Below are positions 1-36,037 of a DNA stretch of 36,037 nucleotides, piece after piece. The stretch is from Methanobacteriota archaeon (GTDB lineage: Archaea > Thermoplasmatota > Poseidoniia > Poseidoniales > Thalassarchaeaceae): positions 1 through 36,037 of the forward strand of contig PBMO01000034.1 in the NCBI GenBank assembly GCA_002722595.1, in the 5' to 3' direction. How positions within the stretch are numbered: the stretch's first letter is position 1; every line of letters starts with the position of its first letter. Both the position numbers and the translations under genes were made by a program. The notes beneath the pieces were generated by a model. It saw nothing but the letters and a program-made list of their open reading frames with translations. It had not been told where the DNA came from and searched no databases.

Positions 1-53
1 AACCATATTTTGGTTTTTTTCTATTATGGATTTTGAAAGGACTCCCTGAATGA
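1..53 (+). CDS. possible C-terminal tail of a membrane protein, cut by the left edge
   Basis: The frame starting at base 3 is open from the window edge to a TGA at 51-53. It encodes a short hydrophobic tail, PYFGFFLLWILKGLPE. This could be the end of a membrane protein whose body lies outside the window. Sixteen codons are too few to prove coding, and the other frames stop earlier or equally early. The tail would end 9 bases before the next proposed start at 63, which fits the tight packing of the rest of the window. Confidence 0.2.
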   Translation, partial: PYFGFFLLWILKGLPE

Positions 54-7244: not shown

Positions 7245-7880
7245 ATGCAGGTAGTCCACCTCCATTGGTCACGAGAGAGCATGGATGGAACCGGTTTTGA
7301 AGAATTGCTAATCCCCTGTACAAAACTAGAGGTTGTTGCTCATCTCGCAGTCACAGAAAAAGGTGTTCGGCAGTTGATGCGTTGCGAATATAGAGAGGGT
7401 TTTGGTCCGGAAGATCTCTCTAATTCCCAGTATCTGACTTTTGAGGAAACGCTACGAGGCGATGGTGAAGAAACCCCTGTAGTTGTTTTCAACACTCATC
7501 CATTAGCAATTGGCGGTGTGGATTTTGAGGATATTGCGGTCTTGCCCCCATACACAATATCAGATGATGGGATCTCAATTACAATAAGAGGCGTGGCAAG
7601 TGGCATCAAGAATTTCCTCGATCTTGCTAGAAAAATAAATCCTCCTGATAATATCAAAGTCATCAAAGAAATCGAGGAGATTGGAGGCCCCAAGGGCCTA
7701 CTCGGAGAACGACAATGGGAAGTTGTCCAAGCTGCTGTGCAGTGGGGTTACTACGATAATCCGAAGAAAATTTCTATGAGAAAAATGGCTGAGCAACTAG
7801 ATATGGCTCGTTCAACGCTGGGAGAACATCTGAATAATGCCGAAGCAGTTCTGATGCGTTGGTTGGTGAATCAAGATTGA
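7245..7880 (+). CDS. HTH_10 (bacterio-opsin activator type) transcription regulator
   Basis: The 211-residue protein ends in an HTH_10 domain, about residues 150-208. The block LLGERQWEVVQAAVQWGYYD begins it, and KMAEQLDMARSTLGEHLNNAE forms the helix-turn-helix. This is the typical C-terminal DNA-binding module of archaeal Bat-like regulators. The first 140 residues are a mixed alpha/beta region without a recognisable PAS or GAF motif, and probably act as sensor or dimerisation domain. The gene is divergent from the giant membrane protein (107 bases between starts). It is convergent with the CD36-like gene with one base between stop codons. Targets are unknown; the divergent neighbour is the obvious first candidate. 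Confidence 0.85.
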   Translation: MQVVHLHWSRESMDGTGFEELLIPCTKLEVVAHLAVTEKGVRQLMRCEYREGFGPEDLSNSQYLTFEETLRGDGEETPVVVFNTHPLAIGGVDFEDIAVLPPYTISDDGISITIRGVASGIKNFLDLARKINPPDNIKVIKEIEEIGGPKGLLGERQWEVVQAAVQWGYYDNPKKISMRKMAEQLDMARSTLGEHLNNAEAVLMRWLVNQD

Positions 7881-7881
7881 A

Positions 7882-10389
7882 TCATTCTTCCTCAGACCAA
7901 TCAATTTCTCTATTACTGCCTCTACCTAGTTTTGCAACTACTGAACATCCCAATAGAGAAACAATACCAAGTACCCATATCGCGAATGTAATTTGATCGA
8001 TATACATTGAATCACCATCGGTGTCAAAGTTTGTCCAATAACTATACGGTTGCGTATTAGTAATTACCAAGTCCTTGAAGTCCTCTGATTGCGACTCAGT
8101 CATCGATGAATTTTGTGATATTTGGAACACCTTCTGCAAATCATCCATCTCTGGATCACTTGTGCCGATGGCATTCAAACCTCTAGTGTCCAGATAGAAG
8201 TAGGAATCCAAATCTCCAGCAATTGCAGCATTTACATTTGGCTCCATTTCTATTGTTACTTCACCGCCAAAGTATACTGGTAATGCACCGGGAAAAACAT
8301 CCAGAATATTCTCCTGTCCGAGAAGTTTTGCTTGTATCGGGTTGTCTAATGGGTCAAGATTGAACTTATGTGTGTAGGTTTCAATGCCTAGTACGGAGCC
8401 CATTCCTACAACTTCGCTTGTTGCTACAACATATCCACCCAAGTTCGATCTTGCTGGTTCATTTGCAGGGAAGTAACTTCCCACAACACCAGATTGGTTC
8501 ACGGGTTCTAGCATACCATATGCAGATTGGTTGCGAGCAGGAGTCCTCCACGGTAGGTACTCGCTGTAGTCTTCGAATAGTAGTTGACCCGGTTCATAAT
8601 CCCCTACTGCGCCAGTGAACACTGAATAAACCGATGCAGAATCAGTCCAACAATCTGTACCAAATCCATCTTCTATACTTTGGTCATATTGGCATCCATA
8701 GTAAGTTGCATTTTTCTCAAGAGATACCCACCCACTTAGTGGGTCATTCCAACCGAAGAGCCAGTTGTTTACTGATTGAGTCTTGTATGGGACTACATCG
8801 AGGAAAGAATCCAGTAAGGGGTCGAGAAACTGGTCAAAAACTGTGTAACTAAATAACCAACGAAGTGCGCTGGCAGAGTTGTTATCAAGGCCATATATTT
8901 CAGCCACAAAAGCATCATTCCATTCATGAACTGTACCACCAGGTGTTGGAATGTAATTTGCGTCCATAGGGACCGAAAAGCCAGTCATTTCTCCATACAT
9001 GAAGTCCATAGCAAAATCGCTCGAAATTGAGTGTGGTCCCTCAAAAAGGCCCTCAGTTACTTCGGCATCTAAATCTACCAGCGGATTTCCATAAACGGTA
9101 CTCCACAGAGGTCCAATATCAGTTCCAACATTCAATCCAAGTGTGATGTATTGGTTATTGATTGGGTCGATAGAGCCAAATGACTCATAGAACCATTCAT
9201 CAGCATTAATTTTCCCACTTCCTCCTGATAAAATCATCTCATAATTTTCTGACGATAAGAACCAATCTCCTGCCCATCCACCAATGCTCTCAAGGGCCCA
9301 GAAGGGGAATGTATACTGCTCAGGATTAACAGTGAGTTCAATCTTTAATGCAAAAGGATCCTCCTGTGCTTTCAGGAGAAAATCAGTAGAACCACAAAGA
9401 ATCTTTTGGCTGTCGCACTTCAATAATCCAGTGGGGACTCCATCAGTTTCTGAAAATAGAAGATGTTGAAGAGTAGATTCATCATCAATTCTATACCCTA
9501 TCATTTCTTCTAATCTGTCATTCAAATCTTCTAGAGATGCCGATTCTAAATTAGCACCGCCTCCATGACTTGAAAATCGTGCACTAATCTCATTATACAA
9601 TTCATTATCTCGTGCAAATGTCTCTGCATCATCAGCACCAACATAACCGAATAATGTAGCACGTTCTATAGAAGAAGTCCCATTATCTGGTTCACCAAGG
9701 CGCACCATTAGCATAGGCCCAATATCACAAGTCATTGCAATGCATATTGAGTTATCATTTGGATCTCTGGCAGCATTCATTACTTGATCTAGTGCTGATG
9801 CATTAAAGGAAGGGAGAGTGGCTGTCATATCAACTCCATCGAGGTCGTTTGATACCCATATGGATGGCGCTCTTTCGCTAAGGTCGACATAGAGCATATC
9901 TGTTGTGAAGGCCCCTCTAACGAATTGTGCACCTGTATCAATTGCAGTCCCTACGGCTCCTATTTTTTGTGCGTTGAATAAGATATTGAGATTGGTAAGC
10001 TGCGTATCTCCAGATAATCCATCAGCCCATTCGTAGACATTGTATTCGCGATAGGTTAGGATTCCAGTGTCCTCATTGTGTCCACATACAGAACAATCAA
10101 GATCTCGTTTTGTTGTGAGGTTATAGGTAAATGGACCCATTTTCTCAAATTCCATATCGGTTGCCGCCCCATCTTGTAACTCGGCTGCATTGGTAAGGTT
10201 CCAAGCATAGAAAGAGCGTAGAGATGTTGAACTAGTCCAACCTTCATCTTCCCATGTTTCATTATCCATCACTGTTGCAGTTGCAAGTGTTTCTTCAGTT
10301 GTTTCCATCACCATTGGGGAAATAACCGCCAAATTCACTGAAAAAAGCAGCAAACCAACGATTCCCAAAGCCACAGCCTTAGCGTTCAT
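7882..10389 (-). CDS. CD36/LIMP-2-like two-anchor ectodomain protein
   Basis: The 835-residue protein has a membrane segment at each end: residues about 5-27, and about 797-822 followed by a short acidic cytosolic tail. A large ectodomain lies between, the same topology as eukaryotic CD36/LIMP-2/SR-B1 scavenger receptors. After the first helix the sequence reads SLRSFYAWNLTNAAEL (about 56-71), then EKMGPFTYN (82-90), then LTNLNILF (131-138). These correspond in order and spacing to the CD36 blocks 'F-x-x-F-x-V-x-N-P-x-E-V', 'x-x-x-GPY-x-Y-R' and the 'D-x-x-x-V-L-N-L' strand. Cys pairs (99/102 and several later) suggest disulfides. The ectodomain is longer than the roughly 400 residues of CD36. 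CD36 proteins move lipids or bind polyanionic ligands; whether this one does is inference. Actinobacterial PorA/DUF3068 proteins are an alternative relative. Fold call moderate, function unknown. Confidence 0.6.
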   Translation of the reverse strand: MNAKAVALGIVGLLLFSVNLAVISPMVMETTEETLATATVMDNETWEDEGWTSSTSLRSFYAWNLTNAAELQDGAATDMEFEKMGPFTYNLTTKRDLDCSVCGHNEDTGILTYREYNVYEWADGLSGDTQLTNLNILFNAQKIGAVGTAIDTGAQFVRGAFTTDMLYVDLSERAPSIWVSNDLDGVDMTATLPSFNASALDQVMNAARDPNDNSICIAMTCDIGPMLMVRLGEPDNGTSSIERATLFGYVGADDAETFARDNELYNEISARFSSHGGGANLESASLEDLNDRLEEMIGYRIDDESTLQHLLFSETDGVPTGLLKCDSQKILCGSTDFLLKAQEDPFALKIELTVNPEQYTFPFWALESIGGWAGDWFLSSENYEMILSGGSGKINADEWFYESFGSIDPINNQYITLGLNVGTDIGPLWSTVYGNPLVDLDAEVTEGLFEGPHSISSDFAMDFMYGEMTGFSVPMDANYIPTPGGTVHEWNDAFVAEIYGLDNNSASALRWLFSYTVFDQFLDPLLDSFLDVVPYKTQSVNNWLFGWNDPLSGWVSLEKNATYYGCQYDQSIEDGFGTDCWTDSASVYSVFTGAVGDYEPGQLLFEDYSEYLPWRTPARNQSAYGMLEPVNQSGVVGSYFPANEPARSNLGGYVVATSEVVGMGSVLGIETYTHKFNLDPLDNPIQAKLLGQENILDVFPGALPVYFGGEVTIEMEPNVNAAIAGDLDSYFYLDTRGLNAIGTSDPEMDDLQKVFQISQNSSMTESQSEDFKDLVITNTQPYSYWTNFDTDGDSMYIDQITFAIWVLGIVSLLGCSVVAKLGRGSNREIDWSEEE

Positions 10390-11250: not shown

Positions 11251-11850
11251 ATGTCGATTCACATTCGCGTACCCATGCTTCCTGGTTCAGGAAAAGAGGT
11301 TTGGCAAGCGAATGTAAACGGTGAAGAAAACGAACATCTTGTCGAAAGCAATTCGATTTTGTTAGATGTTCTTCGTGATCAAGTAGGTACGTTGGGAGTC
11401 AAACGTGGCTGTGACATGGGTACTTGTGGATGTTGCGCAGTTCTTATCGACGGTGAGCCAAGATTATCCTGCCTTTGTTTGGCCAAAGAAGCAAGTGGTA
11501 CAGAAATTACAACGGTAGAAGGTTTAGCTGATGGACATCACCTACATCCTATCCAGCAGTGTTTTGCAGAAGCTGGTGGTAGTCAGTGTGGTTTCTGTAC
11601 ACCAGGTTTCCTTGTGGTAAGTGCAGCTCTACTTGACGAGAATCCACAACCAAGTCGCTCTGAGATTAAGTGTGCGATTGAAGGCAATCTTTGCCGATGT
11701 ACTGGTTACCAGCAGATTGTAGATGCCGTTGAAATGGCCGCGGCGATGAAGCGTGGTGGTACTTCCACGCCAGATACTACCGATCCTAAATCAGATCCAC
11801 ACCCACTCGGTCCAGATGACCCATCCCTGCCACCGGGCAGTTCAAAATAG
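11251..11850 (+). CDS. molybdenum hydroxylase small subunit, two 2Fe-2S clusters (HcrC/CoxS-like)
   Basis: This is the electron-transfer subunit of a xanthine oxidase-family enzyme. The plant-type 2Fe-2S ligands are C54-x4-C59-x2-C62-x11-C74. The second, all-helical 2Fe-2S domain has C113-x2-C116 and C148-x-C150, with CGFCTPGF and CRCTGY. These spacings are exactly those of the family. The first about 165 residues are the whole known subunit. A Pro/Asp/Gly-rich tail of about 30 residues follows and is extra. The start used is ATG at 11251, but ATG at 11275 is possible because the first 20 residues are poorly conserved. The stop overlaps a good ribosome binding site (GGTGAT) for the large subunit, 8 bases downstream. 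Confidence 0.93.
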   Translation: MSIHIRVPMLPGSGKEVWQANVNGEENEHLVESNSILLDVLRDQVGTLGVKRGCDMGTCGCCAVLIDGEPRLSCLCLAKEASGTEITTVEGLADGHHLHPIQQCFAEAGGSQCGFCTPGFLVVSAALLDENPQPSRSEIKCAIEGNLCRCTGYQQIVDAVEMAAAMKRGGTSTPDTTDPKSDPHPLGPDDPSLPPGSSK

Positions 11851-11858
11851 GTGATAAA

Positions 11859-14663
11859 ATGGCTAAGGGATATCGTCAGGCACCTGGTAAAGGTGGGAGT
11901 AAAAAGCGAACTGATGGAAAGCGGGTCGCAGGACAGCAAGATTTTGGGGTACCCGGTTCGGGTGGTTCTGATCCATACTCTAAATTGCAAGATTTAGACT
12001 ACGTTCCAGAATCAGTAGGGGGTTGGAAAAAGCAACCAAGGGGCCCCCATGTACATGATCGCCATGTTACTGGGATGACAATTGGTAAGCCTGTGCCTCT
12101 TGTCGATTCAAATTGGAAAATCACAGGACAAGCACATTATGGCGACGATATTCGTTTACCTGGTGAATTGATAGGGAAGATTTTGAGATCACCCCATCAT
12201 TATGCTAAGATTTTGTCAATAGATACATCGGCTGCTGAAGCTATGGATGGTGTCTTTGCAGTTGCGACGGGTCAAGATTCGGTGAATAAATTCGGTGTTC
12301 TTCCTGTAACAAAGGATGAACATGCAATGGCCCAAGAAAAAGTTCGACATGTAGGCGATTTAGTTGCTTGTGTTTGTGCAATAGATGAGGCAACAGCCAT
12401 TGAAGCAATGAATGCAATTTCGGTAGATTATGAAGTACTTCCAAGTATACATGATATGGAGGATGGGTTGAAGGATTCAGAGAATCCAATACATGATCGG
12501 GGTAAATATCACATTGGCGAATCCAATGTTCAAAAGAGAGTTTTCCAGCAATTTGGTGACCTTGAAGGAATGAAGGATGCACCGTTTCATCATGAAGCTG
12601 ATTGGGAAACTGCAGGCCTACATCATGGTTTCACGGAGCCACATGCAGTTGTTGCACATTGGGATCCATCAGGGAGGTTAACTGTATGGACGCCTCAACA
12701 AGTACCTCATTATCTTCACAGAGGGCTGTCTGCAGTTTTAGACATACCAATGCACCAAATCAATGTCCACCGGACTTTCGTAGGAGGAGGTTTTGGGGGT
12801 AAATCAGATCCTTTCCCGCATGAAATGTGCGCTGCCATCCTTGCTCGTAAATCAGGACGTCCAGTGCGCATTAATTTTGACAGAGAAGAGGTATATTGGA
12901 TAAATCGTGGTCGCCATCCTTCGAGAATCCAAATGGGGGTATTTGCTGATGATGAAGGGCGCATATCTGGAATCGAAACCGATGCACTAATCGACGGTGG
13001 AGCGTTTGCCTCGTTTGGACATGTGACTACTTATTACAACGGTGTTTTACATACAGCACCATACGAAATAGGTGCATTCAATTACACGGGTGCTAGGGTT
13101 TGGACCAACAAACCAGCAAGTGGAGCCATGCGTGGTCATGGTGCGGTAAATAGCCGGTGTGCTGTCGAGGTCGGAATTGATGCTGTCTCAGAGCAGATGA
13201 AAGTAGATCCGATGACATTCAGACTAGCTAATTTACTTCCACCTCACAGTCGGACAATTACAGGTTTTCGTGTCACAAGTACTGGTATGCGTGAATGTTT
13301 GGCGAAAGTGCGTGAACAATCTGGATGGGATGAAAAGTTCAGAAATTTACCACTTGGAAAGGGTATAGGTGTTGGTTGCGGGTTCTTCATATCGGGTTCA
13401 GGTTTGCCAATTCATTGGGATCCAGAAAATTTCCCACACGCAACAGTACATCTGCAGTGTGATATGGATGGAGGTGTCACAGTACACACTGGTGCTGCAG
13501 ATATTGGACAAGGAAGTGACACAGCAGTTGCTCAAGCAGTTTCGGAAGTTCTCGCACTACCATTGGACATGATTCGAATTAGGAGTAAAGAAAGCGACAC
13601 TGCTCCAGTCGATCTTGGCTCCTATTCAAGTCGAGTCACTTTCATGAATTGTAATGCTGCTATTAAGGCGGCTTGCGAGTTGCGTGATAAAGTGTTGAAG
13701 GCAGCTTGGGAAATCACCGGTTACAATCCAGATGTGTTGGTTATTGGTGATAGGCGGATTTACTACAAGCATGACCCTGCAATCGGAGTTTCTTGGCTTG
13801 AAGCGGTTCACAAAGCACAAGCTGATGTTGGGTCATTAATTGCTTCAGGTGCTTACAGGACACCTCCTATGGGAGGCATTCACAAAGGTGCCGCGGCCGG
13901 TCTTGCACCTGCGTATTCCTTCTCGGCCTATGTTGCTGAAGTTGATGTTGATGTCGAAACAGGTTTTGTCAAAATCACGAAGGCTTGGGCTGCTCATGAT
14001 TGTGGGAAAGCCCTCAATCCTCTAGCAGTCAAAGGGCAAATCATAGGCTCTTGCCACATGGGCATGGGTCAAGTTTTGTCAGAGGAAATGAAGTATGGTC
14101 GCAATGGCCATCTGATGAATCCAGATTTGTTGGATTACAAGATTATGAGTGTACATGAAATGCCCGATGTTGTTCCAATAATTGTCGAAAGCAATGATCC
14201 AGAGGGTCCTTTTGGAGCCAAAGAAGCTGGAGAAGGGCCACTTTTACCAATCTTGCCCGCAGTATGTAATGCAATTTACGATGCGATAGGTATCAGAATT
14301 GACGAATTACCAGTTACCCCTGATCGTCTTCACAAAAGAATCGAGAAGCATTGTAGAAAACTTGGTATTGATGACCCGTTAGAACTCCCAGTCCCTCGAT
14401 TTGAAGCAGGCCCTCTTCAGCAAAAATTGGTTGAACGCGCAAAATCACATGCGAAAAGAGATCATCTTCGTGACATACAAGAGGATCGTTCATCATATGT
14501 GAACGGTGTTCTGTTCGGATTTGATCCAGATAAACCCATGTCTGAACAAAAGGAAGGGTGGAGAGAATCAGTTATACCAACTCCAGAGGATTTAGCAGAT
14601 CCAAAAAAGCGTGCTGCAAGAGCTTGGAGCCATGTTGAACGACGTCATCGAGGTGATGCTTAA
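11859..14663 (+). CDS. molybdenum hydroxylase large (Mo-cofactor) subunit, 4-hydroxybenzoyl-CoA reductase / xanthine dehydrogenase type
   Basis: This is the catalytic subunit. Family landmarks are GGGFGGK (309-315), GAMRGHG (422-428) at the cofactor site, the GAADIGQGSDTAVAQ block near 547-561, and GAKEAGEG (786-793) with the catalytic Glu792. The CO dehydrogenase form I loop (AYRCSFR) is absent, so it is not a CoxL CO dehydrogenase. At 934 residues it is about 150 longer than usual HcrA/XdhB proteins. There is an extra basic, glycine-rich N-terminus of about 65 residues, and an extra C-terminal region of over 100 residues rich in Lys, Arg and Glu. No twin-arginine signal is seen, so it is probably cytosolic. 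ATG at 11859 follows GGTGAT at good spacing. The stop overlaps the medium subunit start by one base (TAATG). Confidence 0.92.
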   Translation: MAKGYRQAPGKGGSKKRTDGKRVAGQQDFGVPGSGGSDPYSKLQDLDYVPESVGGWKKQPRGPHVHDRHVTGMTIGKPVPLVDSNWKITGQAHYGDDIRLPGELIGKILRSPHHYAKILSIDTSAAEAMDGVFAVATGQDSVNKFGVLPVTKDEHAMAQEKVRHVGDLVACVCAIDEATAIEAMNAISVDYEVLPSIHDMEDGLKDSENPIHDRGKYHIGESNVQKRVFQQFGDLEGMKDAPFHHEADWETAGLHHGFTEPHAVVAHWDPSGRLTVWTPQQVPHYLHRGLSAVLDIPMHQINVHRTFVGGGFGGKSDPFPHEMCAAILARKSGRPVRINFDREEVYWINRGRHPSRIQMGVFADDEGRISGIETDALIDGGAFASFGHVTTYYNGVLHTAPYEIGAFNYTGARVWTNKPASGAMRGHGAVNSRCAVEVGIDAVSEQMKVDPMTFRLANLLPPHSRTITGFRVTSTGMRECLAKVREQSGWDEKFRNLPLGKGIGVGCGFFISGSGLPIHWDPENFPHATVHLQCDMDGGVTVHTGAADIGQGSDTAVAQAVSEVLALPLDMIRIRSKESDTAPVDLGSYSSRVTFMNCNAAIKAACELRDKVLKAAWEITGYNPDVLVIGDRRIYYKHDPAIGVSWLEAVHKAQADVGSLIASGAYRTPPMGGIHKGAAAGLAPAYSFSAYVAEVDVDVETGFVKITKAWAAHDCGKALNPLAVKGQIIGSCHMGMGQVLSEEMKYGRNGHLMNPDLLDYKIMSVHEMPDVVPIIVESNDPEGPFGAKEAGEGPLLPILPAVCNAIYDAIGIRIDELPVTPDRLHKRIEKHCRKLGIDDPLELPVPRFEAGPLQQKLVERAKSHAKRDHLRDIQEDRSSYVNGVLFGFDPDKPMSEQKEGWRESVIPTPEDLADPKKRAARAWSHVERRHRGDA

Positions 14664-15631
14664 TGCGCATGCCACCTTTTACTTTGCATACTCCTGAAAA
14701 CTTGGCACAAGCCCTCTCTTTGGCCTCAGAAATGGACAATTTTGATTGGGTTGCCGGTGGAACTGATTTACTCCCTAACTACAAATGGCATTTGAACCCA
14801 AAACCCAATGTAATTTCATTGGCCAAAGTTCAGGAATTAACAGCACTTTCAAGCACAGTAATTGGGGCAATGGTGAGAGTTCATGATTTGGCTAACAGTG
14901 AGGAAATTCATCCATTAATACGTGAAACTGCGGCCACAATTGCGAGTGTTATGATTCGCCGTTCAGCTACTGTTGGCGGCAATATTTGTTTAGACACTCG
15001 TTGTTATTGGTTCAATCAAACAGAAGAGTGGAGGAGGAGTATTGATTGGTGCCACAAATGTGACTGTGATACAGGTGCAGATTGTAGAGTAGTTCCAAAC
15101 CAAAACACACTCTGTGTTGCAACATATCAAGCTGACCTAGCAGCTGCTTTCATCGCTCTTGATGCCACAATTCATCTTGCAAGTGGGGATGGAACACGTT
15201 CTATGCCATTTGCTGATTTCTTCCAATTGGATGGGATGACTCGGAATGTACTCAAATTAGGTGAGTTGGTAACCCATGTTACACTCCCTGAAGATTCAGT
15301 CAATTGGGAGGGCGGATATCAGAAATTACGACTTCGTGAAACTTGGGATTTCCCTGAAGCAGGAGTTGCAGCAGCATGGAAGATTGAGGATGGAAAAATT
15401 GCAGCATTACGAGTTGCGAGCACAGGTTGCGAGAGTATTCCTGGCGATCACTCGGAATTGGCAGAAGGAGCCATTGGTGAGTGGAATGGAAAACAGAGTA
15501 TCCGAGATTTGGCTGAAGGTGTGAGAAAGGCCGTAAAGCCAGTCAGTAACACGTATTTCCCTCCAGCATATAGGCGGAAAATGCTACGTGTTTTGACTCG
15601 AAGAGCTCTTTCACCTCTCGAGCACCTGTAG
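14663..15631 (+). CDS. molybdenum hydroxylase FAD subunit with 4Fe-4S-type cysteine insertion (HcrB-like)
   Basis: The FAD-binding fold is shown by AGGTDLLP (31-38) and SATVGGN (101-107). Directly after the second motif comes a cysteine-rich insertion, about residues 109-151, with NICLDTRCYWFNQTEEWRRS and further Cys. Cysteines are at 109, 114, 130, 133, 135, 141 and 151. Ordinary CoxM/XdhA FAD subunits lack this. It closely resembles the insertion that binds a 4Fe-4S cluster in the beta subunit of 4-hydroxybenzoyl-CoA reductase; C114, C130, C141 and C151 fit the four ligand positions best. PaoB of E. coli aldehyde oxidoreductase is a more distant alternative. The CO dehydrogenase C-terminal domain follows (about 200-320). 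Last gene of the S-L-M unit. Substrate not decided by sequence. Confidence 0.9.
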   Translation: MRMPPFTLHTPENLAQALSLASEMDNFDWVAGGTDLLPNYKWHLNPKPNVISLAKVQELTALSSTVIGAMVRVHDLANSEEIHPLIRETAATIASVMIRRSATVGGNICLDTRCYWFNQTEEWRRSIDWCHKCDCDTGADCRVVPNQNTLCVATYQADLAAAFIALDATIHLASGDGTRSMPFADFFQLDGMTRNVLKLGELVTHVTLPEDSVNWEGGYQKLRLRETWDFPEAGVAAAWKIEDGKIAALRVASTGCESIPGDHSELAEGAIGEWNGKQSIRDLAEGVRKAVKPVSNTYFPPAYRRKMLRVLTRRALSPLEHL

Positions 15632-21960: not shown

Positions 21961-23289
21961 TCAATTGGTCAACAAATCTAATCCATTGCACAGAACACGA
22001 AGAGCCTTTTCTGTATCATCTTCGGAAACAGATGAGTGTATCGCATGGTCTCTTGGATGATCATACATAATCTCCATTTTCAAGCCCTCTATCCTTGCGA
22101 TTTCTTGGATTTTCTTCAGGGTACTGCTGTCATTTCCAATACCTTCACCAACAAAGCACAGAATTGACATTGCTTCTCCAATCTCAGGTGTAGGTAGATT
22201 GAGACGTTCTGATAGGATTCTTTTGGCCCTTGCAGCCATTCTCTTGGAAACTAATAGACGAACGTGCCCTGGTTGCGCATGGATACTGACGACATTTATT
22301 CTTGAACGATTGAGAATACCCATGGCATCACTTACAGATTCCGTCAATGACATTGCATTGGATAGATTCCATTTTAGCGGTACTAATTTTGAAAGGCAAC
22401 CTACGGCACGAACTGAAGGTTCTTTCGAACGAATTGATGGTCCAATGATGGTTCCTCCGATTTCAGGACTATGAAGGGGGCGCAGATACAGTGGGATTCC
22501 AGAATCTCGTAGGGGTTCTACTGCTGAAGGATGAAGCATTGGTTGACTGAAAATTGCTAATTCAGCAGCTTCAGTATAGGATAGGTTGGACAAATTTCGA
22601 GCGGGTAATGTCCATCTTGGTGATAATGCTAGTACCCCATCTACATCGCGCCAAATGGTAACGCTCGCAGCATCAAGTGCCGAAGCAAGAGCCGTCGCAG
22701 TTAGATCCGACCCCCCTCTGCCTAGAAGCGCAAACCCGTCTCGTGAAATGCCATACCAACCTGTAATTACTGGAACTGCCTTTGATGGTAAAGACAAACT
22801 TTCACGGGTTGCTTGAATATCGATAGTTGCATCTTCGCCGCGACCTACTAGGCAAATTCCTGCGTGCTCCGACCAAGTCGGTACAGCAGGTATTCCTCTT
22901 GCGTGAAGTGCTGCTGAAATTGCGAGACTTGAGAGCCGTTCACCACAAGCCAAGATGTCTGCCTTCTTATGCTCCTCTGGTTGTGTGTGATATCTCTCAA
23001 GAGAATCACAAAGATGCTTCAGTGTATCCTTGAAATGTGCCTCCCAAGGAGATGAATTGATTTCTGGAACTCTTTCAACATGCTCTAATTCAATTGAGGA
23101 AACGAATGCTAAGTTTGAGGAAATATGATCATTTTCAATTTGTTTGAGCAACCTATCTGTAACACCGCTAAATGCTGAAACAATAACAACTGATTGTTTT
23201 TCAGCCAGTCTAATTCTTTCTACAACTGCATCAATATCTTCTATAGCTGAGAGACAAGAACCTCCAAATTTATGGATATGTATGCTCAT
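21961..23289 (-). CDS. lysC: aspartate kinase
   Basis: Aspartokinase makes 4-aspartyl phosphate from aspartate and ATP, the first step to lysine, threonine, methionine and aspartate semialdehyde. The N-terminal HKFGGSCL (6-13) is the KFGGTS-type signature. VVIVSAFSGVTDRLL follows, and GRGGSDLTATALASAL (about 192-207) is the second kinase signature. The last about 150 residues form two ACT-like repeats for feedback control (NVVSIHAQPGHVRLLVS and a second, degenerate one). 442 residues is normal for archaeal forms. The start ATG overlaps the stop of aroC by 4 bases (ATGA), a translational coupling arrangement. Aspartate semialdehyde, made from its product, is a substrate of the ADTH synthase at 26312-27097, so grouping with aro genes makes metabolic sense. 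Confidence 0.93.
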   Translation of the reverse strand: MSIHIHKFGGSCLSAIEDIDAVVERIRLAEKQSVVIVSAFSGVTDRLLKQIENDHISSNLAFVSSIELEHVERVPEINSSPWEAHFKDTLKHLCDSLERYHTQPEEHKKADILACGERLSSLAISAALHARGIPAVPTWSEHAGICLVGRGEDATIDIQATRESLSLPSKAVPVITGWYGISRDGFALLGRGGSDLTATALASALDAASVTIWRDVDGVLALSPRWTLPARNLSNLSYTEAAELAIFSQPMLHPSAVEPLRDSGIPLYLRPLHSPEIGGTIIGPSIRSKEPSVRAVGCLSKLVPLKWNLSNAMSLTESVSDAMGILNRSRINVVSIHAQPGHVRLLVSKRMAARAKRILSERLNLPTPEIGEAMSILCFVGEGIGNDSSTLKKIQEIARIEGLKMEIMYDHPRDHAIHSSVSEDDTEKALRVLCNGLDLLTN

Positions 23290-24338
23290 TTTTCAGCACC
23301 TCTTAATTGCATTAAATCTGCTAAAATCAATCGACAAACAGCCTCGACAACAGGAGCTGCTCTTGGTGCAATGACTGGATCGTGGCGCCCCCCAATTTGG
23401 AGTTCACGCATCTCGCCAGATGGTAGATGTAGTGTCATTTGTGTCTTGGAGATAGAACTTGGAGGTTTGAAGTGTACTTGGATTCGCAAAGGGGCTCCGG
23501 TTGACATTCCACCTAATGCCCCATCGGGATTACTTCCTACAGGAGTTTGTTCGATTCCCCATGCATCGTTGTGTTCTGAACCTTGCATTCTGACAACGTC
23601 CTTCCCACGTCCAAATTCTACCGCACGTGCAGCAGGTATGGCCATGAGGCCCCGTGCTAGCGCAGGTTCTAACCCCTCAAACCATGGTTCACCTAGACCG
23701 ATTGGAAGATTTGAGATGCAACATTCTACGCTTGAACCGATACTATCCCCTTGTTTCCTGAGGGCCTTGACTAATGCAAACATTTCTTCAGCGGCCTCCG
23801 AGTCATTGCAATTCAGAACATCGCATGCCTCTCCATCCCTTGTTCCATCTATTCTACCCTTAATTGGCCCAATTTGAGAACAATGTGCCTCAACCATTGC
23901 ATCACCAATTAAATTACGAGCAATCGAGCCAGCAGCAACTAGACCAAGAGTTAGACGGCCTGATTGAGTTCCACCACCTCTAAGGTCAGCTGCACCGTTT
24001 GTTCTTTCGGCCTCAGGAAGGTCTGCATGTCCAGGGCGAGGATGATCAGGTAGGAATCCATAATCCCGGGATTTAGCATCTTTATTTCGGACCAATAAGA
24101 GAATCGGATAACCAGTCGTTTTCCCATTGTAAACACCAGACAAAATTTCGCATTCATCAGGTTCAGCCCTTGCAGAAAGCAAACGGCGCCCCGGTCGTCT
24201 ACTTTCTAAATCCTGAATCAATATTTCAATATCAATTTCAATACCGGGAGAGACACCTTCCAGCAATGCACCAACAGCAGGACCATGGCTTTCGCCAAAG
24301 AGTGTGACTCGAATATTCTCGCCGAGACTCATCCCCAT
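23286..24338 (-). CDS. aroC: chorismate synthase
   Basis: It converts 5-enolpyruvylshikimate-3-phosphate to chorismate with reduced FMN as cofactor, the last common step of aromatic biosynthesis. Signatures are LFGESHGPAVGALLEG (13-28), RPGHAD (101-106), RGGGTQSGRLT (120-130) and, near the end, RHDPVIAPRAAPVVEAV. The third motif differs from the textbook RGGGRSSARET; an SGRLT form occurs in some shorter bacterial and archaeal enzymes. 350 residues is normal. Start ATG 24338 or ATG 24332 (residue 3) are both possible. The hairpin at 24341-24359 ends two bases before the first ATG, so its stability could control initiation. The 3' end overlaps lysC by 4 bases. Confidence 0.95.
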   Translation of the reverse strand: MGMSLGENIRVTLFGESHGPAVGALLEGVSPGIEIDIEILIQDLESRRPGRRLLSARAEPDECEILSGVYNGKTTGYPILLLVRNKDAKSRDYGFLPDHPRPGHADLPEAERTNGAADLRGGGTQSGRLTLGLVAAGSIARNLIGDAMVEAHCSQIGPIKGRIDGTRDGEACDVLNCNDSEAAEEMFALVKALRKQGDSIGSSVECCISNLPIGLGEPWFEGLEPALARGLMAIPAARAVEFGRGKDVVRMQGSEHNDAWGIEQTPVGSNPDGALGGMSTGAPLRIQVHFKPPSSISKTQMTLHLPSGEMRELQIGGRHDPVIAPRAAPVVEAVCRLILADLMQLRGAEK

Positions 24339-24340
24339 CT

Positions 24341-24359
24341 CTGCACCCTACGGGTGCAG
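24341..24359. repeat. intergenic hairpin with CCC-TAC-GGG core (copy 2)
   Basis: CTGCACCCTACGGGTGCAG is a perfect 8-bp stem with a TAC loop on the plus strand. It lies between the aroK stop (24378) and the aroC start (24338), both on the minus strand, so the transcript carries the GUA loop form. It touches the aroC start region. The core equals copies 1 and 3, while the outer stem differs with compensating changes. Confidence 0.75.
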
Positions 24360-24377
24360 CGCGGAAAAACTTCCATA

Positions 24378-25241
24378 TTATGCCTCGCTAGTCAGGAACT
24401 TGGTTTCAATTACATTCCATCCACGCGGTTCTAGTGTCTGTTTAATCCTGCGAATAGAAGCATCTAGACTAGAAGGTAGAATTGAAACAATTGCTGGACC
24501 TGAGCCTGTTATTGTAGACACCCTTGAACCAATTATGCCGAGGTCATTACATATTTTACGGCCAAGAGTATCTCCTGTTGCAGTAGCGACTGCTCGCCCA
24601 TTCTGAATCATTGCTGTAAAAATCTGCTCTCTTTCAACAGCAGATATTGCCTGTTGGAACTGCCCTGAAGCCATTTGGAAACGTTCAGGGTCGATCTCTA
24701 GTTCTCGTGGCCCCCTGTCGATAATCAGAATAGTCCAATCTCCTGCACCCTCAATTTCGCCTTGCATCAATACTCCTTCTGCTGCAGGTACGGATGGGTC
24801 AACGACTTTCCATCCAGCCTCAACTGCTGACCACGAATCATCAACTGAACCAGTCAATGAGCATCCACATGCTAGTTGTGCTGCTGATGCAAGATCAACA
24901 ATCTGGTGATTTGCAAGTTCAGTCCCCGTTGCATCTGAAAGAGCACGAATGCAAGCCACTGCAAGGGCTGCACTTGATTTCACTCCACGCCCCATTGGTA
25001 TATCTGATCGTACAGCCCAATGAAATTCCTCAGATTCAGGTAGTGAAAGTCCCGCAGATTCCCATGTTTCCATTGTAGATGGAATTAATCCGTGAGGGTC
25101 ATCTGGTTGTGTTTTAACAGGGGAATCTCTCAATTGAACTCGGGTTGATAATGTGATACTCACCGTTGAACCATAACCAGCTCCCAACGCATGTAGGATA
25201 CTAATGCCTCCATGCCCTTCACCTCGTCCCAAAACTGCCAA
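24378..25241 (-). CDS. aroK: archaeal-type shikimate kinase (GHMP family)
   Basis: It phosphorylates shikimate with ATP. This is the archaeal enzyme, unrelated to bacterial AroK, from the galactokinase/homoserine kinase superfamily. The ATP loop is SDIPMGRGVKSSAALAVA (79-96). GHGGISILHALGAGYGS (about 9-25) lies at the N-terminus, GSVDDSWSAVE (about 131-141) follows, and ITGSGPAIVSIL near 243-254 is the GHMP C-terminal motif. 287 residues is usual. The start is TTG at 25241, backed by an AGGAGGG ribosome binding site 6 to 12 bases before it and by correct alignment of the N-terminus. It begins 11 bases after the aroB' stop, within the aro unit. Confidence 0.92.
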   Translation of the reverse strand: MAVLGRGEGHGGISILHALGAGYGSTVSITLSTRVQLRDSPVKTQPDDPHGLIPSTMETWESAGLSLPESEEFHWAVRSDIPMGRGVKSSAALAVACIRALSDATGTELANHQIVDLASAAQLACGCSLTGSVDDSWSAVEAGWKVVDPSVPAAEGVLMQGEIEGAGDWTILIIDRGPRELEIDPERFQMASGQFQQAISAVEREQIFTAMIQNGRAVATATGDTLGRKICNDLGIIGSRVSTITGSGPAIVSILPSSLDASIRRIKQTLEPRGWNVIETKFLTSEA

Positions 25242-25252
25242 ATTCGACCCTC

Positions 25253-26302
25253 CTAGCGCTCCTCGACTGATGACAGAACATTCTGACCGATATGTCTAGC
25301 GGTTGTACCCATTCTAGCAAGTAGGGTATCACCGTTGTTTATTGAAGTTACAGAAAGGCATTTTCCGTTTGGAACAACAAGTCTGACAGTCTCAGCCTGT
25401 TGCAAGAAGGTTTGTCCAATAATACCACTATCTGAATGCCTGAATCTGATAAGCAAAAATGGTCGTGTTTCTATTTTTAACCGACCTACAATAGCATCAC
25501 GTAATTCACCCTTTGAGTTGCTAATTGCTACTTTATCTCCCGCCTCAAGTTCACACAGATATTTTGTAGTCGTGTCTGAAAGTAGGACATATGCATGAAC
25601 AGCGCCAGCGTTTATTCTAAATGGGCGTGATGGAACAAATTCACTTTCCAAAGTTTCCCCGTGTACTAGAGTCAGCGCATTTGCAGAAGAACCCACCAAC
25701 AATCCCTCACCAACATCAAGTTTCGAAGTCAAGTCTACACAGACACGATCTCCAGTGCCACCATCTTCTACTGCAATCACTTCAACTTCTACAATTGGAG
25801 ACTCATGGGCCTCATCGAAGGCGCTTTCTTCACCCAAAGATTTCACTGCTAAGCGTTCCGCTGCTATTGCTTGAGCATCAGCCCACATTACTGGTTGGTT
25901 TGGAGGTATCAGTAATGCATCAACACCCGTTTCTAGCGCAAAAGCAGCACCCCTAATCGATTGAGAATCATCAATTCTTGCCACAACTTTGGTCCCAGAT
26001 TTCTGTGCTGCTGCTACAATATTCTCCAGTGGTATCATTTGCCAATCGCCAGTCGTTATGACAATCCACTGGACCATCCCAACCATTGCACGTGCAGCAT
26101 TTTGCCCCTCTGAATCGCTGATGTCAACATGTATTCCTACTGGTTTGGTGGATGAATCTAAGATTCTCCCATCCTCACAAGCAAATAGTGGTGAATCAGT
26201 CCATTCTGGAATAGCATCTCCTGCCATTAGGAGAACACGATCAGCAGGATGTGGTTCAATTTGAGCAAATCCATAACTCGCCCCATCCAGCCAGATTTCC
26301 AT
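25253..26302 (-). CDS. aroB': 3-dehydroquinate synthase II
   Basis: It oxidatively deaminates and cyclises ADTH (2-amino-3,7-dideoxy-D-threo-hept-6-ulosonate) to 3-dehydroquinate with NAD, in the archaeal alternative to the DAHP route. Conserved family blocks are visible: DDSQSIRGAAFALETGVDAL (about 112-131), GGTGDRVCVDLTSKLDVGEG (about 180-199) followed by LLVGSS, RPFRINAGAVHAYV (about 227-240), and IVGRLKIETRPFLLI (about 272-286). 349 residues is typical. ATG 26302 is 9 bases downstream of the aroA' stop, with a GAGGGA ribosome binding region. The product goes to dehydroquinase and shikimate dehydrogenase, which are not in this window. Confidence 0.94.
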   Translation of the reverse strand: MEIWLDGASYGFAQIEPHPADRVLLMAGDAIPEWTDSPLFACEDGRILDSSTKPVGIHVDISDSEGQNAARAMVGMVQWIVITTGDWQMIPLENIVAAAQKSGTKVVARIDDSQSIRGAAFALETGVDALLIPPNQPVMWADAQAIAAERLAVKSLGEESAFDEAHESPIVEVEVIAVEDGGTGDRVCVDLTSKLDVGEGLLVGSSANALTLVHGETLESEFVPSRPFRINAGAVHAYVLLSDTTTKYLCELEAGDKVAISNSKGELRDAIVGRLKIETRPFLLIRFRHSDSGIIGQTFLQQAETVRLVVPNGKCLSVTSINNGDTLLARMGTTARHIGQNVLSSVEER

Positions 26303-26311
26303 ATCAATCCC

Positions 26312-27097
26312 TCATTTTTCATGGACAATTTTTCTCAGAGCCCGAATACATTCAGCAGGATTTTTTGACCCAAACACTTGTCGACCCATGCAAACACCAG
26401 CTCCACCTGCAGAAACTGCATATTTTACAATCTCCAAGGTTTCTGAAAAGTCAGAGTTCATCGGACCTCCAGAGATTAAGACAGGTATTGGAACCGCTTG
26501 ACAGACTTTTCGGAAACTTTCGGCATTTCCAGTCCATGGTACCTTAACCACATGGCAACCCAATTCATAGGCTACACGAGCCGCATGAGCGACTCCACCT
26601 GTGATGTCATTTGGAAGTATGGTTAGATTGGGTCCCCTCGGATACACCATACCAAGAACTGGCATGCTAGTTTCGTGCGCCTCAGCTGTCAATTGGCCCA
26701 TGTCGCGAAGCATTGACGGTTCGTTTTCATCACCAAGGTTAATTTGCCCAGATACACCAGTTGCCCCCCTGGAATATGCTTCCTTAGCACTTGCAACTTT
26801 GACTTTGAATTGTGATTTTGTTCCTCCATGAACCGTCGAAGCAGACACATGACAAACAAATCCATTCCACCCTGTTCGACTATATTGGTGTGAAAGTACA
26901 CCTTTCTGACAAACGATTGCATCTGCTCCACCAGTGATGATTGAATCAATAACGCTGTCCATTCTGTCTAGACCTTCCTCAGGATAACCGGAAAGGCCAT
27001 GGTCGATTGGAATCCAAACACCACGTCCATTCGGTAACAGTTGCTCAAGACGATTGGCAAGGTCTCCGCTCATGCTCTGGCCCACTACTTCTTGCAT
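26312..27097 (-). CDS. aroA': 2-amino-3,7-dideoxy-D-threo-hept-6-ulosonate (ADTH) synthase
   Basis: This class I aldolase-like enzyme joins L-aspartate semialdehyde with 6-deoxy-5-ketofructose 1-phosphate to give ADTH, the first step of the archaeal aromatic pathway. The Schiff-base lysine is Lys185 in CHVVKVPWTG. Asp32-His33-Gly34 in WIPIDHG and Tyr152 in VYPRG match catalytic residues of the family. The phosphate site is near VLISGGP (about 210-216) and AGVCMGR. 261 residues is normal. It could also be read as a class I fructose-bisphosphate aldolase, but the neighbouring DHQ synthase II gene makes ADTH synthase much more likely. ATG 27097 is 10 bases past the hairpin at 27108-27126. Confidence 0.92.
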   Translation of the reverse strand: MQEVVGQSMSGDLANRLEQLLPNGRGVWIPIDHGLSGYPEEGLDRMDSVIDSIITGGADAIVCQKGVLSHQYSRTGWNGFVCHVSASTVHGGTKSQFKVKVASAKEAYSRGATGVSGQINLGDENEPSMLRDMGQLTAEAHETSMPVLGMVYPRGPNLTILPNDITGGVAHAARVAYELGCHVVKVPWTGNAESFRKVCQAVPIPVLISGGPMNSDFSETLEIVKYAVSAGGAGVCMGRQVFGSKNPAECIRALRKIVHEK

Positions 27098-33338: not shown

Positions 33339-33971
33339 ATGGCAAGTAGTAAGTGGGGTGTTGCAATATCCACTTTACTGGTCATGTCATTTCTCATTCC
33401 AACGGTTGAATCATATTCAGCAGGAATCTCAAATGTCCCTTCGAATGGTTGTATATGTCACAATTATGAACCAACTGAGACAGTCAACATATCAATTATT
33501 GGACTCCCAGATGATTATCAAATTAACACCACATATACTCTGTTTATTGGTGCTGAAAACGGTGCTGATTTAGTTGAAAACCATACTAATTCGGGGGGGT
33601 TTAATTTTTGGATTAGCCATGGAGAATTAACATCCCTTGGGAACGAAACTAAGACCTGGTCTATTAATGAAATATCGCACACAAATGAGGGCAACAATCA
33701 GCGCAATTGGACATTTCTATGGACATCTCCCAGTGATGAGAATATTGTAGTAGAGTATCGATTACACGTCAACACTGTCAATGGAGACGGTATACCGTCA
33801 CCCGACGATAAGTGGAACAGATTAACAGGGGTAATAGGGGATGAAATAGAACCAATTAGTGCATTATTTCTGTATGGGGTTCCTGTTGTTATGATTGGAT
33901 TAATATCGCTGGTTTATTTCAGAGAAATGAGGAAATTACGAGATGAAGCAAATGCATTTGAAGATGAATAA
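33339..33971 (+). CDS. Reeler / choice-of-anchor-V-like surface protein
   Basis: The 210-residue protein has a signal peptide (hydrophobic to about residue 22, cleavage near VESYSA) and a C-terminal anchor helix (about 176-196) followed by a charged tail. The ectodomain starts NVPSNGCICHNY with Cys38, Cys40 and His41. It continues with a beta-sandwich pattern: GGFNFWISHGEL, then EISHTNEG, NWTFLWTSPS and HVNTVNGDGIPSPDDKW. That order matches the Reeler-like 'choice-of-anchor V' domain of bacterial and archaeal surface proteins (family recalled, not searched). The usual C-x-x-CH cysteine motif is here CxCH, so it is not a c-type heme site. N-glycosylation-type sites are frequent. It is convergent with the next surface protein, one base apart. 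Ligand unknown. Confidence 0.65.
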   Translation: MASSKWGVAISTLLVMSFLIPTVESYSAGISNVPSNGCICHNYEPTETVNISIIGLPDDYQINTTYTLFIGAENGADLVENHTNSGGFNFWISHGELTSLGNETKTWSINEISHTNEGNNQRNWTFLWTSPSDENIVVEYRLHVNTVNGDGIPSPDDKWNRLTGVIGDEIEPISALFLYGVPVVMIGLISLVYFREMRKLRDEANAFEDE

Positions 33972-33972
33972 T

Positions 33973-36037
33973 TCAAGACTCCCATTTAGTCCATTTTGAT
34001 TCAGTACCACTCCTGTACCATTTTTCGTTTTCGTGATCAATCCATTCATATCCTTTTTCATCAACAAAACCTTCTGCTGCAGTTGATGGTTCTAGGCTCA
34101 GTTCTTCTTCGGTATAATCAGTCTGATCCGGGGTGGTGACAATTGGGTCGAAATCATCATCTTCACCAGTTAATTTGGCTTCACTCATCTCAATTTCGTC
34201 ATCGAGCTCAGCCCTCACTCTTTCCAATCTGATTCCTTGATGAGGCCCAATTAGTCGAATCATTAAGGCCCGCTCATATTCGGTTGCAACTTCTTCTAAT
34301 TCCTCTCGAGATGTTGCCTTTCTCATCCTCGCTTCAAATATCTCAGTACGCGTGTTCCTCGTTACAAAGCCAAAGATTAGCCATGATGCTATAGGCACCC
34401 CAGTAAGTACACCCAATAGGTCCCAAGCACTTAGTGCAATATTTTCTGTAATTGCGATTTGGAAATCTTCTTTCGGCTTATCATTCGGGTCATATGGGTC
34501 GGTACCTTCTCGCATTTCAATCCAGTCGCCCCATTCGTCGTTATCATCATCAGGGTCGATATTGTCTCCAAATCCATCATCATCTGAATCAGCCCATTCA
34601 CTACTATCATCTGGGTCCCAATCTTCATCATCCAACCAACCATCATTGTCTAGATCACCAGGTGTCGCGTAGAATGGCAATGGGTCGATACTGTTGTTGT
34701 AACCGTCATTGTCACTGTCGAATAAGTAAGGGTCTGGATTATTTCCATTTGGATTGTCCCCCAATCCATCACCATCTGAATCAGCCCATTGTGTTGCATC
34801 AAGTGGGAACAAGTCTGGCATACTTCCACTTGGATTGTCCCCAAACCCATCTCCATCCGAATCAATCCATTGGGTAGGGTCCAGAGGGAATGCATCGGGC
34901 ATGTTTCCACTTACGTTGTCTCCGTAGCCATCCCCGTCAACATCTGACCACTGTGTTACATCATCAACAAACTTGTCTGCATTCGAACCGAGTGGATTAT
35001 CTCCAAACCCATCTCCATCCGAATCAGTTGTTTGGGTGGGGTCGAATGGAAATGAATCGAGTACATTCTCAACACCGTCACCATTAGTGTCCTCCCAAAT
35101 TTCTGGGTTATTTGGGAATCGATCATAAATATCACTAACACCATCACCATCAGAATCTATGCACCCATATACGTCGATAACTGAAGTTCCATATTCGTTA
35201 GGACATGCATCAGGTAAATTTCCAAATGGGTTATCTCCATATTGATCCCCATCAAGATTCATAGTTTGCGTCGGGTCAAAGGGAAATGCATCTGAATTGT
35301 TTCCGACACCATCTCTGTCAGTATCTTCCCATTCTGTTGGGTCATTTGGAAATGGGTCATTCACATTGGGACGAGTGTCTCCATCAGAATCTGGACACCC
35401 TTCTTCGAATTCAAATGTTGAGTTACCAAACAATTTCGGGCACTCGTCTCTATAGTCATCAAATCCATCGCCATCATCATCCAAGTCTTCGGAAGCATCG
35501 TAGCACCCATCCATGTCAATGTCCGTCGTATTATCTGGTGTCCAATCAGTCCATCCTCTTGGACAACCATCATTTTCGTCTAGGATTCCATCACTATCAT
35601 CATCTAGATCCTCATCGGAATCACTACATCCATCTCCATCGTGATCAGTAGATGGCAAAGATTGGAAACCAAATGGAGAGGGGTTGCAATCATCAAACTC
35701 GTCGAGGATGAAATCACCATCGTCATCAGGATCTAATGAATCTGGCAAGTTGTCTTGGTCATAGTCACTTGACATTTTCGCGACAAACGCATCAAAGCCT
35801 CCACTCGGAGGTATGTTGATATTTCCAAATGAAATTGTATTTTGCACAAAATAGCCTGAAATATACAGGTTGCCTTGAGAATCGGTTGCAATCCCAAGTC
35901 CAGTGTCGATATTTCCACTTCCCGCTTTTTTAGACCATGACCAAGTTCCATCCATCTGAAGTTTTGTGACAAATACATCTTGATTTCCACTACTCGTCAT
36001 CGCAGTGTTTCCAAATGATGCCGTGCCCCTAAAGTCT
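33973..36037 (-). CDS. thrombospondin type 3 repeat surface protein, N-terminal part outside the window
   Basis: The frame stays open to the right edge, continuing upstream of the first in-window ATG (36000) with FRGTASFGNTAMTSSGNQDVFVTKLQ. This is an SBBP-type beta-propeller repeat, of which a second copy (NTISFGNINIPPSGGFDAFVAK) follows. So the protein is N-terminally truncated here. About 15 calcium-binding D-x-D-x-D-G thrombospondin type 3 repeats follow. Early ones are cysteine-containing; later ones share SDGDGFGDNPxGxxPDxFPLDPTQW. A membrane helix (WDLLGVLTGVPIASWLIFGF) precedes about 130 cytosolic residues containing EARMRKATSREELEEVATEY, an acidic linker and a final Trp-rich block (YEWIDHENEKWYR to KWTKWES). 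Such proteins are typical of Marine Group II cell surfaces, probably in adhesion or polymer binding. Confidence 0.9.
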   Translation of the reverse strand, partial: DFRGTASFGNTAMTSSGNQDVFVTKLQMDGTWSWSKKAGSGNIDTGLGIATDSQGNLYISGYFVQNTISFGNINIPPSGGFDAFVAKMSSDYDQDNLPDSLDPDDDGDFILDEFDDCNPSPFGFQSLPSTDHDGDGCSDSDEDLDDDSDGILDENDGCPRGWTDWTPDNTTDIDMDGCYDASEDLDDDGDGFDDYRDECPKLFGNSTFEFEEGCPDSDGDTRPNVNDPFPNDPTEWEDTDRDGVGNNSDAFPFDPTQTMNLDGDQYGDNPFGNLPDACPNEYGTSVIDVYGCIDSDGDGVSDIYDRFPNNPEIWEDTNGDGVENVLDSFPFDPTQTTDSDGDGFGDNPLGSNADKFVDDVTQWSDVDGDGYGDNVSGNMPDAFPLDPTQWIDSDGDGFGDNPSGSMPDLFPLDATQWADSDGDGLGDNPNGNNPDPYLFDSDNDGYNNSIDPLPFYATPGDLDNDGWLDDEDWDPDDSSEWADSDDDGFGDNIDPDDDNDEWGDWIEMREGTDPYDPNDKPKEDFQIAITENIALSAWDLLGVLTGVPIASWLIFGFVTRNTRTEIFEARMRKATSREELEEVATEYERALMIRLIGPHQGIRLERVRAELDDEIEMSEAKLTGEDDDFDPIVTTPDQTDYTEEELSLEPSTAAEGFVDEKGYEWIDHENEKWYRSGTESKWTKWES

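Follow-up and report, generated by a model that had tools for sequence, protein, structure and literature searches.

An 835-residue open reading frame, P0001, encodes a protein that profile searches and a predicted structure place within the CD36/SR-B family as a true archaeal member. The reading frame lies on the minus strand of the window (the whole stretch of DNA analysed, 36,037 nucleotides, part of a Thalassarchaeaceae draft genome of 1.64 Mb that is 76% complete), begins with ATG and is free of internal stops. Gene and protein are laid out as follows.

7882..10389, minus strand: CD36-family membrane protein P0001, 835 aa (open reading frame, Pfam, AF2, Foldseek)
10276..10383, minus strand: N-terminal transmembrane helix, model residues 3-38, hydrophobic window 5-23 (hydropathy and AF2)
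9973..10239, minus strand: N-terminal part of the CD36 barrel, residues 51-139, with the FYAW.LTN, GPFTY and TNLNILF blocks (Pfam CD36; AF2 strands 53-65, 81-96, 110-124 and 130-134)
8872..9972, minus strand: apex insert, residues ~140-506, almost all helical (models; its excision restores a continuous CD36 match)
8794-9972, minus strand: modelled insert segment, including helix 503-530 (AF2 of the insert alone)
8014..8871, minus strand: C-terminal part of the CD36 barrel, residues 507-792, apex helix first (profile, AF2, Foldseek and insert-free match)
8740..8769, minus strand: NNWLFGWNDP motif, residues 541-550, pairing with ELLWGYKDEI (LIMP-2) and ELLWGYRDPF (CD36)
7927..8010, minus strand: C-terminal transmembrane helix, residues 794-821 (hydropathy and AF2)

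The Pfam CD36 model (PF01130) aligned residues 11-139 of the intact protein with profile positions 2-133 (E 1.1e-12; 47.6 bits, with a curated cut-off of 26.5 bits). All 18 relatives scanned matched the same model (best E 1.7e-20), which gave zero matches in 14 control genomes and in the sampled Thermoplasmatota genomes outside Poseidoniales. The three sequence blocks from which an earlier note had inferred an archaeal homologue of CD36/LIMP-2/SR-B1, namely SLRSFYAWNLTNAAEL (56-71), EKMGPFTYN (82-90) and LTNLNILF (131-138), are present in P0001, and the homology itself is borne out by the profile match above the curated cut-off and by the LIMP-2/CD36 fold that Foldseek recovers (see below). 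NCBIfam has no named family for P0001. A PDB search with the single sequence found nothing; profiles were required.

When LIMP-2 was compared with the family profile, it was matched twice and colinearly, in blocks separated by about 400 profile positions but by only about 26 LIMP-2 residues. Removing residues 140-505 of P0001 in silico, together with the corresponding part of its relatives, yielded a single stretch of similarity to Pfam CD36 (residues 11-228 to profile positions 2-219, E 1.3e-16, 60.6 bits) in which gaps are balanced, 218 residues facing 218 profile positions. Insert-free relatives reached E 2.1e-24, with coverage up to profile position 257. A profile made from 8 insert-free cores matched LIMP-2 (3.2e-9) and CD36 (3.7e-9) in the PDB, the match running through NNWLFGWNDP, a motif in which W543, G546 and D549 are invariant across 76 sequences. 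Without the insert P0001 is 469 residues long, the CD36 profile 463 positions. The later ectodomain had been described as unalignable by eye; this is correct, because an insert of ~370-420 residues interrupts the CD36 domain. The ectodomain length given in the earlier note, about 760 residues, stands as a total but not as a single long CD36 domain, the protein combining a CD36 core of normal size (~470 residues) with a helical insert that is separate from it. The profile search suggested there as a check came out in favor of CD36, with a score that rises once the insert is removed. In the C-terminal third, the resemblance to CD36 consists of the predicted fold (a 793-column alignment) and of a weak colinear piece whose sequence similarity is not significant.

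An AF2 model of P0001, built with 76 sequences (pLDDT 85.6, pTM 0.77), shows an N-terminal helix (3-38), strands (53-134), helices up to residue 530, a second set of strands (535-762) and a C-terminal helix (794-821). Comparing this model with the PDB by Foldseek gave 13 matches at E<=1e-3, every one of them LIMP-2 or CD36 (LIMP-2 at the top with E 1.6e-6, probability 1.00 and a target TM-score of 0.60 over 793 columns; CD36, E 5.0e-6, probability 1.00). The next match, LmcA of Mycobacterium smegmatis, was far weaker (E 0.0099-0.013, target TM-score 0.31-0.34). The helix at ~503-530 aligns with the LIMP-2 helix that precedes ELLWGYKDE; the insert either replaces or overlies the three-helix apex bundle. 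The expected CD36/LIMP-2 beta-barrel is carried by the predicted ectodomain; the outcome does not extend to a tunnel. Hydropathy identifies exactly two transmembrane segments (5-23 and 797-815), coinciding with the terminal helices of the model, and so confirms that a helix at each end flanks an ectodomain of about 760 residues. This pattern is exact in 50 of the 76 aligned rows; a further 18 show it with 1-2 extra middle segments, and part of the remainder are truncated. P0001 is strongly acidic (127 D+E against 35 K+R).

The notion that P0001 is an unrelated membrane protein whose N-terminal resemblance to CD36 is accidental or local can draw on the fact that the intact sequence matches at residues 11-139 only. 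The fold match and the effect of removing the insert already contradict it, and further against it stand the colinear second block and the consistency of the CD36 matches across the family, set against their absence from the control genomes; we consider it virtually untenable. Similarity restricted to the N-terminus is ruled out by the same rise in score and fold match. Contamination of the assembled genome can also be dismissed, the gene having turned up in dozens of Poseidoniales genomes that were assembled independently.

The insert is kept in every full-length member and makes up nearly half of the ectodomain. As defined on the alignment, it spans 398-457 residues (5th-95th percentile of 69 full-length rows). 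Modelled alone with its closing helix (140-532), it is nearly all helical (pLDDT 93.1, pTM 0.90), indicating that it is, as predicted, an autonomous helical domain between barrel strands and apex helices. Its mean pairwise identity (0.37) is somewhat lower than that of the barrel (0.42 and 0.45). Foldseek found no match for the predicted insert fold in the PDB (best E 0.94, probability 0.02), no Pfam family recurred at a meaningful score among 68 members, no relative emerged among PDB sequences (best weak match LAMP-1, E 0.056), and profile self-comparison detected no internal repeats. The family contributes a confidently predicted autonomous domain without a PDB fold match, sited where ligand specificity resides.

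P0001 meets the operational definition of an SR-B, that of a CD36 ectodomain between two transmembrane helices (PMC10715195). It shares with CD36, LIMP-2 and other SR-Bs the FYAW.LTN, GPFTY and LWGY.DP-like blocks in the same order, the two terminal transmembrane helices and the predicted barrel; it differs in being archaeal and strongly acidic and in its ~370-420-residue helical insert before the apex helices. The archaeal family also lacks family-wide cysteine pairs that would match the animal disulfides: the family alignment has no conserved cysteine column, and the commonest cysteine is missing from P0001. Conserved disulfides are documented in the members from mammals and insects (PMC10715195) and hence do not define the family. 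Eukaryotic SR-Bs show independent helical expansions of the apex, at helices alpha4 and alpha5 (PMC10715195), and the archaeal insert, standing before the apex helices, occupies the same relative place. Like the expanded apices of Phytophthora, Tetrahymena, Dictyostelium (LmpA) and Aurelia, it is mainly alpha-helical and without known homologues; the eukaryotic expansions, however, are described as lineage-specific and independent (PMC10715195).

A prokaryotic protein with a CD36 fold is not new in itself, since mycobacterial LmcA/PgfA (DUF3068/PorA, PF11271) has this fold (PMC8972800) and handles lipid, PgfA binding trehalose monomycolate and acting in envelope assembly (PMC9678360). The view that CD36 proteins are almost entirely eukaryotic needs refining at the level of fold. 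Our search of the literature, which covered few subscription journals, found no report of a prokaryotic CD36-fold protein matching the CD36 family by sequence; such proteins may already carry the CD36 label through automatic annotation. Like P0001 as predicted, LmcA/PgfA has a CD36-like barrel anchored in the membrane of a prokaryote, in its own case with cavities (PMC8972800, PMC9678360), but LmcA has no helical bundle or head (PMC8972800), and the PF11271 domain is only 297 positions long. The PF11271 profile did not match P0001, and its match in one relative (E 0.0058, 16.4 bits) fell short of the 29.5-bit cut-off.

Relatives of P0001 were found in 52 of 59 near genomes. Those found by sequence belong to Ca. 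Poseidoniales (Marine Group II), the nearest being labelled Thalassarchaeaceae or Marine Group II, and the 80 loci drawn from the genome collection bear the labels Poseidoniales, Thalassarchaeaceae, Poseidoniaceae, Marine Group II or plain Euryarchaeota. The family profile matched 43 of the 48 Ca. Poseidoniales genomes sampled; in the rest of the Thermoplasmatota it had no match in 146 genomes. Judged by these sequence counts, the CD36 family is near-universal in Ca. Poseidoniales. A search for plasmid or viral carriage or relatives of the family found none. Marine Group II archaea rank among the most abundant archaea of the surface ocean; to our knowledge, they have no cultured member. In the tree, the two families are mostly separate (3 label changes, compared with 9.7 in shuffles). 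In the window's genus, certain genomes carry two CD36-family copies, the second ~31% identical to the first and divergently transcribed beside it.

L069:2275-4881, L070:2274-4880 and L066:1-2124: second-copy loci

This copy is missing from the window and falls within the Poseidoniaceae part of the tree, a placement that, as far as sequences go, points to transfer between families or to an old duplication.

By profile score, eukaryotic CD36 is a far nearer match to P0001 than PorA is. This closeness, and the restriction of the family, inside its phylum, to a single marine order, would fit a transfer between these archaea and eukaryotes, in either direction. PorA-type proteins in other Thermoplasmatota leave room for a shared archaeal root. 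Whether these proteins and the Poseidoniales CD36 proteins form one orthologous family is left open, the profile comparison between them not being significant. PF11271 matches occur in 31 of 194 Thermoplasmatota genomes (L142-L149, L160-L166), often as several stretches within one protein of ~745 residues (240 bits in L163), and a profile of these proteins finds LmcA in the PDB at 1.5e-7; PorA/DUF3068 has been described as a purely actinobacterial family (PMC9678360). The evolution of CD36/SR-B has been handled as a matter of eukaryotes alone, going back to their last common ancestor, with archaea unmentioned (PMC10715195). The boldest reading would have Poseidoniales CD36 not as a recent import but as an archaeal branch or source of the SR-Bs, linked through PorA/LmcA proteins in other Thermoplasmatota, with a lipid-receptor fold predating eukaryotes and a head that is a new class of domain, making the barrel a particle-capturing receptor of planktonic archaea; we hold this to be unlikely as matters stand. 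A highly diverged, near-universal CD36 family in abundant ocean archaea does make the origin of CD36/SR-B testable.

As to function, we lean, with clear reservations, towards a surface receptor anchored by two helices, with a head that captures a ligand and a barrel that hands lipid on to the membrane. One transmembrane helix at either end would anchor the protein, leaving the large domain outside the cell. The asymmetric CD36-type beta-barrel would stand on the membrane and bear the helical insert as an enlarged, ligand-capturing head, which may bind lipids, or particles bearing them, from detritus in seawater; hydrophobic molecules would move down an internal tunnel of the barrel to the membrane, and the delivered lipid would feed fatty-acid degradation. 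Within the limits of sequence comparison and modelling, the data establish that P0001 is homologous to CD36 and shares its fold and two-helix topology, where the insert sits and that it is autonomous, and that the family is near-universal in Ca. Poseidoniales; orientation, tunnel, ligand, direction of transport and lipid binding are inferred. Lipid handling by CD36-fold proteins is documented in eukaryotes and mycobacteria (PMC10715195, PMC8972800, PMC9678360). Every Poseidoniales genus is reported to have genes for fatty-acid degradation (PMC6461757; also PMC6336850), and the source genome has three acyl-CoA dehydrogenase-like genes and one AMP-binding ligase gene. Such enzymes are common and are no proof of lipid uptake. 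P0001 offers a concrete candidate for lipid uptake by fatty-acid-degrading Marine Group II archaea.

In the absence of ligand, expression or localisation data, the head could be an adhesin or an enzyme and the barrel only its stalk. A protein acting chiefly as adhesin or as receptor for particles or cells, its head binding proteins or glycans and its barrel serving as a rigid stalk without transport, is to our mind possible though doubtful. The size of the insert and its retention in all full-length members would suit such a role, and its lower conservation relative to the barrel is as expected of a binding surface. Protein ligands are moreover bound at the apices of CD36 proteins (PMC10715195). 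Poseidoniales, which carry genes of thrombospondin type, are presumed to adhere to particles (PMC6461757), and one protein with type-3-like repeats is encoded in the window (33973-36000). Yet the barrel, too, has been kept, with higher conservation than the head; the CD36-fold proteins examined to date have cavities and lipid ligands (PMC8972800), and no binding partner is known for the Poseidoniales protein. Alternatively, the protein might serve envelope building in the manner of mycobacterial PgfA/LmcA, moving the cell's own membrane or surface lipids outward without any uptake of food. LmcA being the next fold match (E ~0.01), the role of PgfA in envelope assembly (PMC9678360) and a near-universal presence in the order that suggests housekeeping all agree with this; the non-significant comparison with archaeal PorA-type profiles and the far stronger match to eukaryotic CD36 (1e-12 to 1e-20; the PorA match of one member reached 0.0058) make it improbable. 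We also know of no mycomembrane in Poseidoniales.

The lipid-passing receptor, which remains our preferred reading, receives no decisive help from gene order. A functional operon was sought, but neighbours vary between genera, with no lipid transporter that would settle function. Since the neighbouring genes differ in this way, no function was drawn from them. The convergent neighbour in the window is a putative regulator:

7245..7880, plus strand: convergent neighbour with a C-terminal HTH_10 DNA-binding domain (PF04967; Pfam)

In 10 fetched loci an HTH_10 gene adjoins that for the CD36 protein, a functional link being unproven. In the window's genus the neighbours are the HTH_10 regulator, AIM24 and molybdenum hydroxylase genes; elsewhere they are an acyltransferase, an M60 peptidase, a PLD/PhoX protein or TctA. 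Near CD36-family genes of other genera lie a large M60 (enhancin-like) peptidase that carries Ig domains (L107:8827-12621) and a giant LTD-PhoX-PLD protein (L081:5611-10209), both probably secreted.

Other loci of the window include the following.

11251-15631, plus strand: three-gene molybdenum hydroxylase operon, with an AIM24-family gene just upstream
21961-27097, minus strand: archaeal-type aromatic amino acid cluster (aspartate kinase, chorismate synthase, GHMP-type shikimate kinase, 3-dehydroquinate synthase II and ADH synthase)
33339-33971, plus strand: Choice-of-anchor V / Reeler-like surface protein
33973-36000, minus strand: calcium-binding protein with thrombospondin type-3-like repeats and an SBBP-like start, cut at the window edge

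The large subunit of the molybdenum hydroxylase scores best against 4-hydroxybenzoyl-CoA reductase alpha, below the cut-off, which leaves its substrate open. As for the last of these proteins, animal CD36 binds thrombospondin through other domains, with no link shown for the protein in the window.
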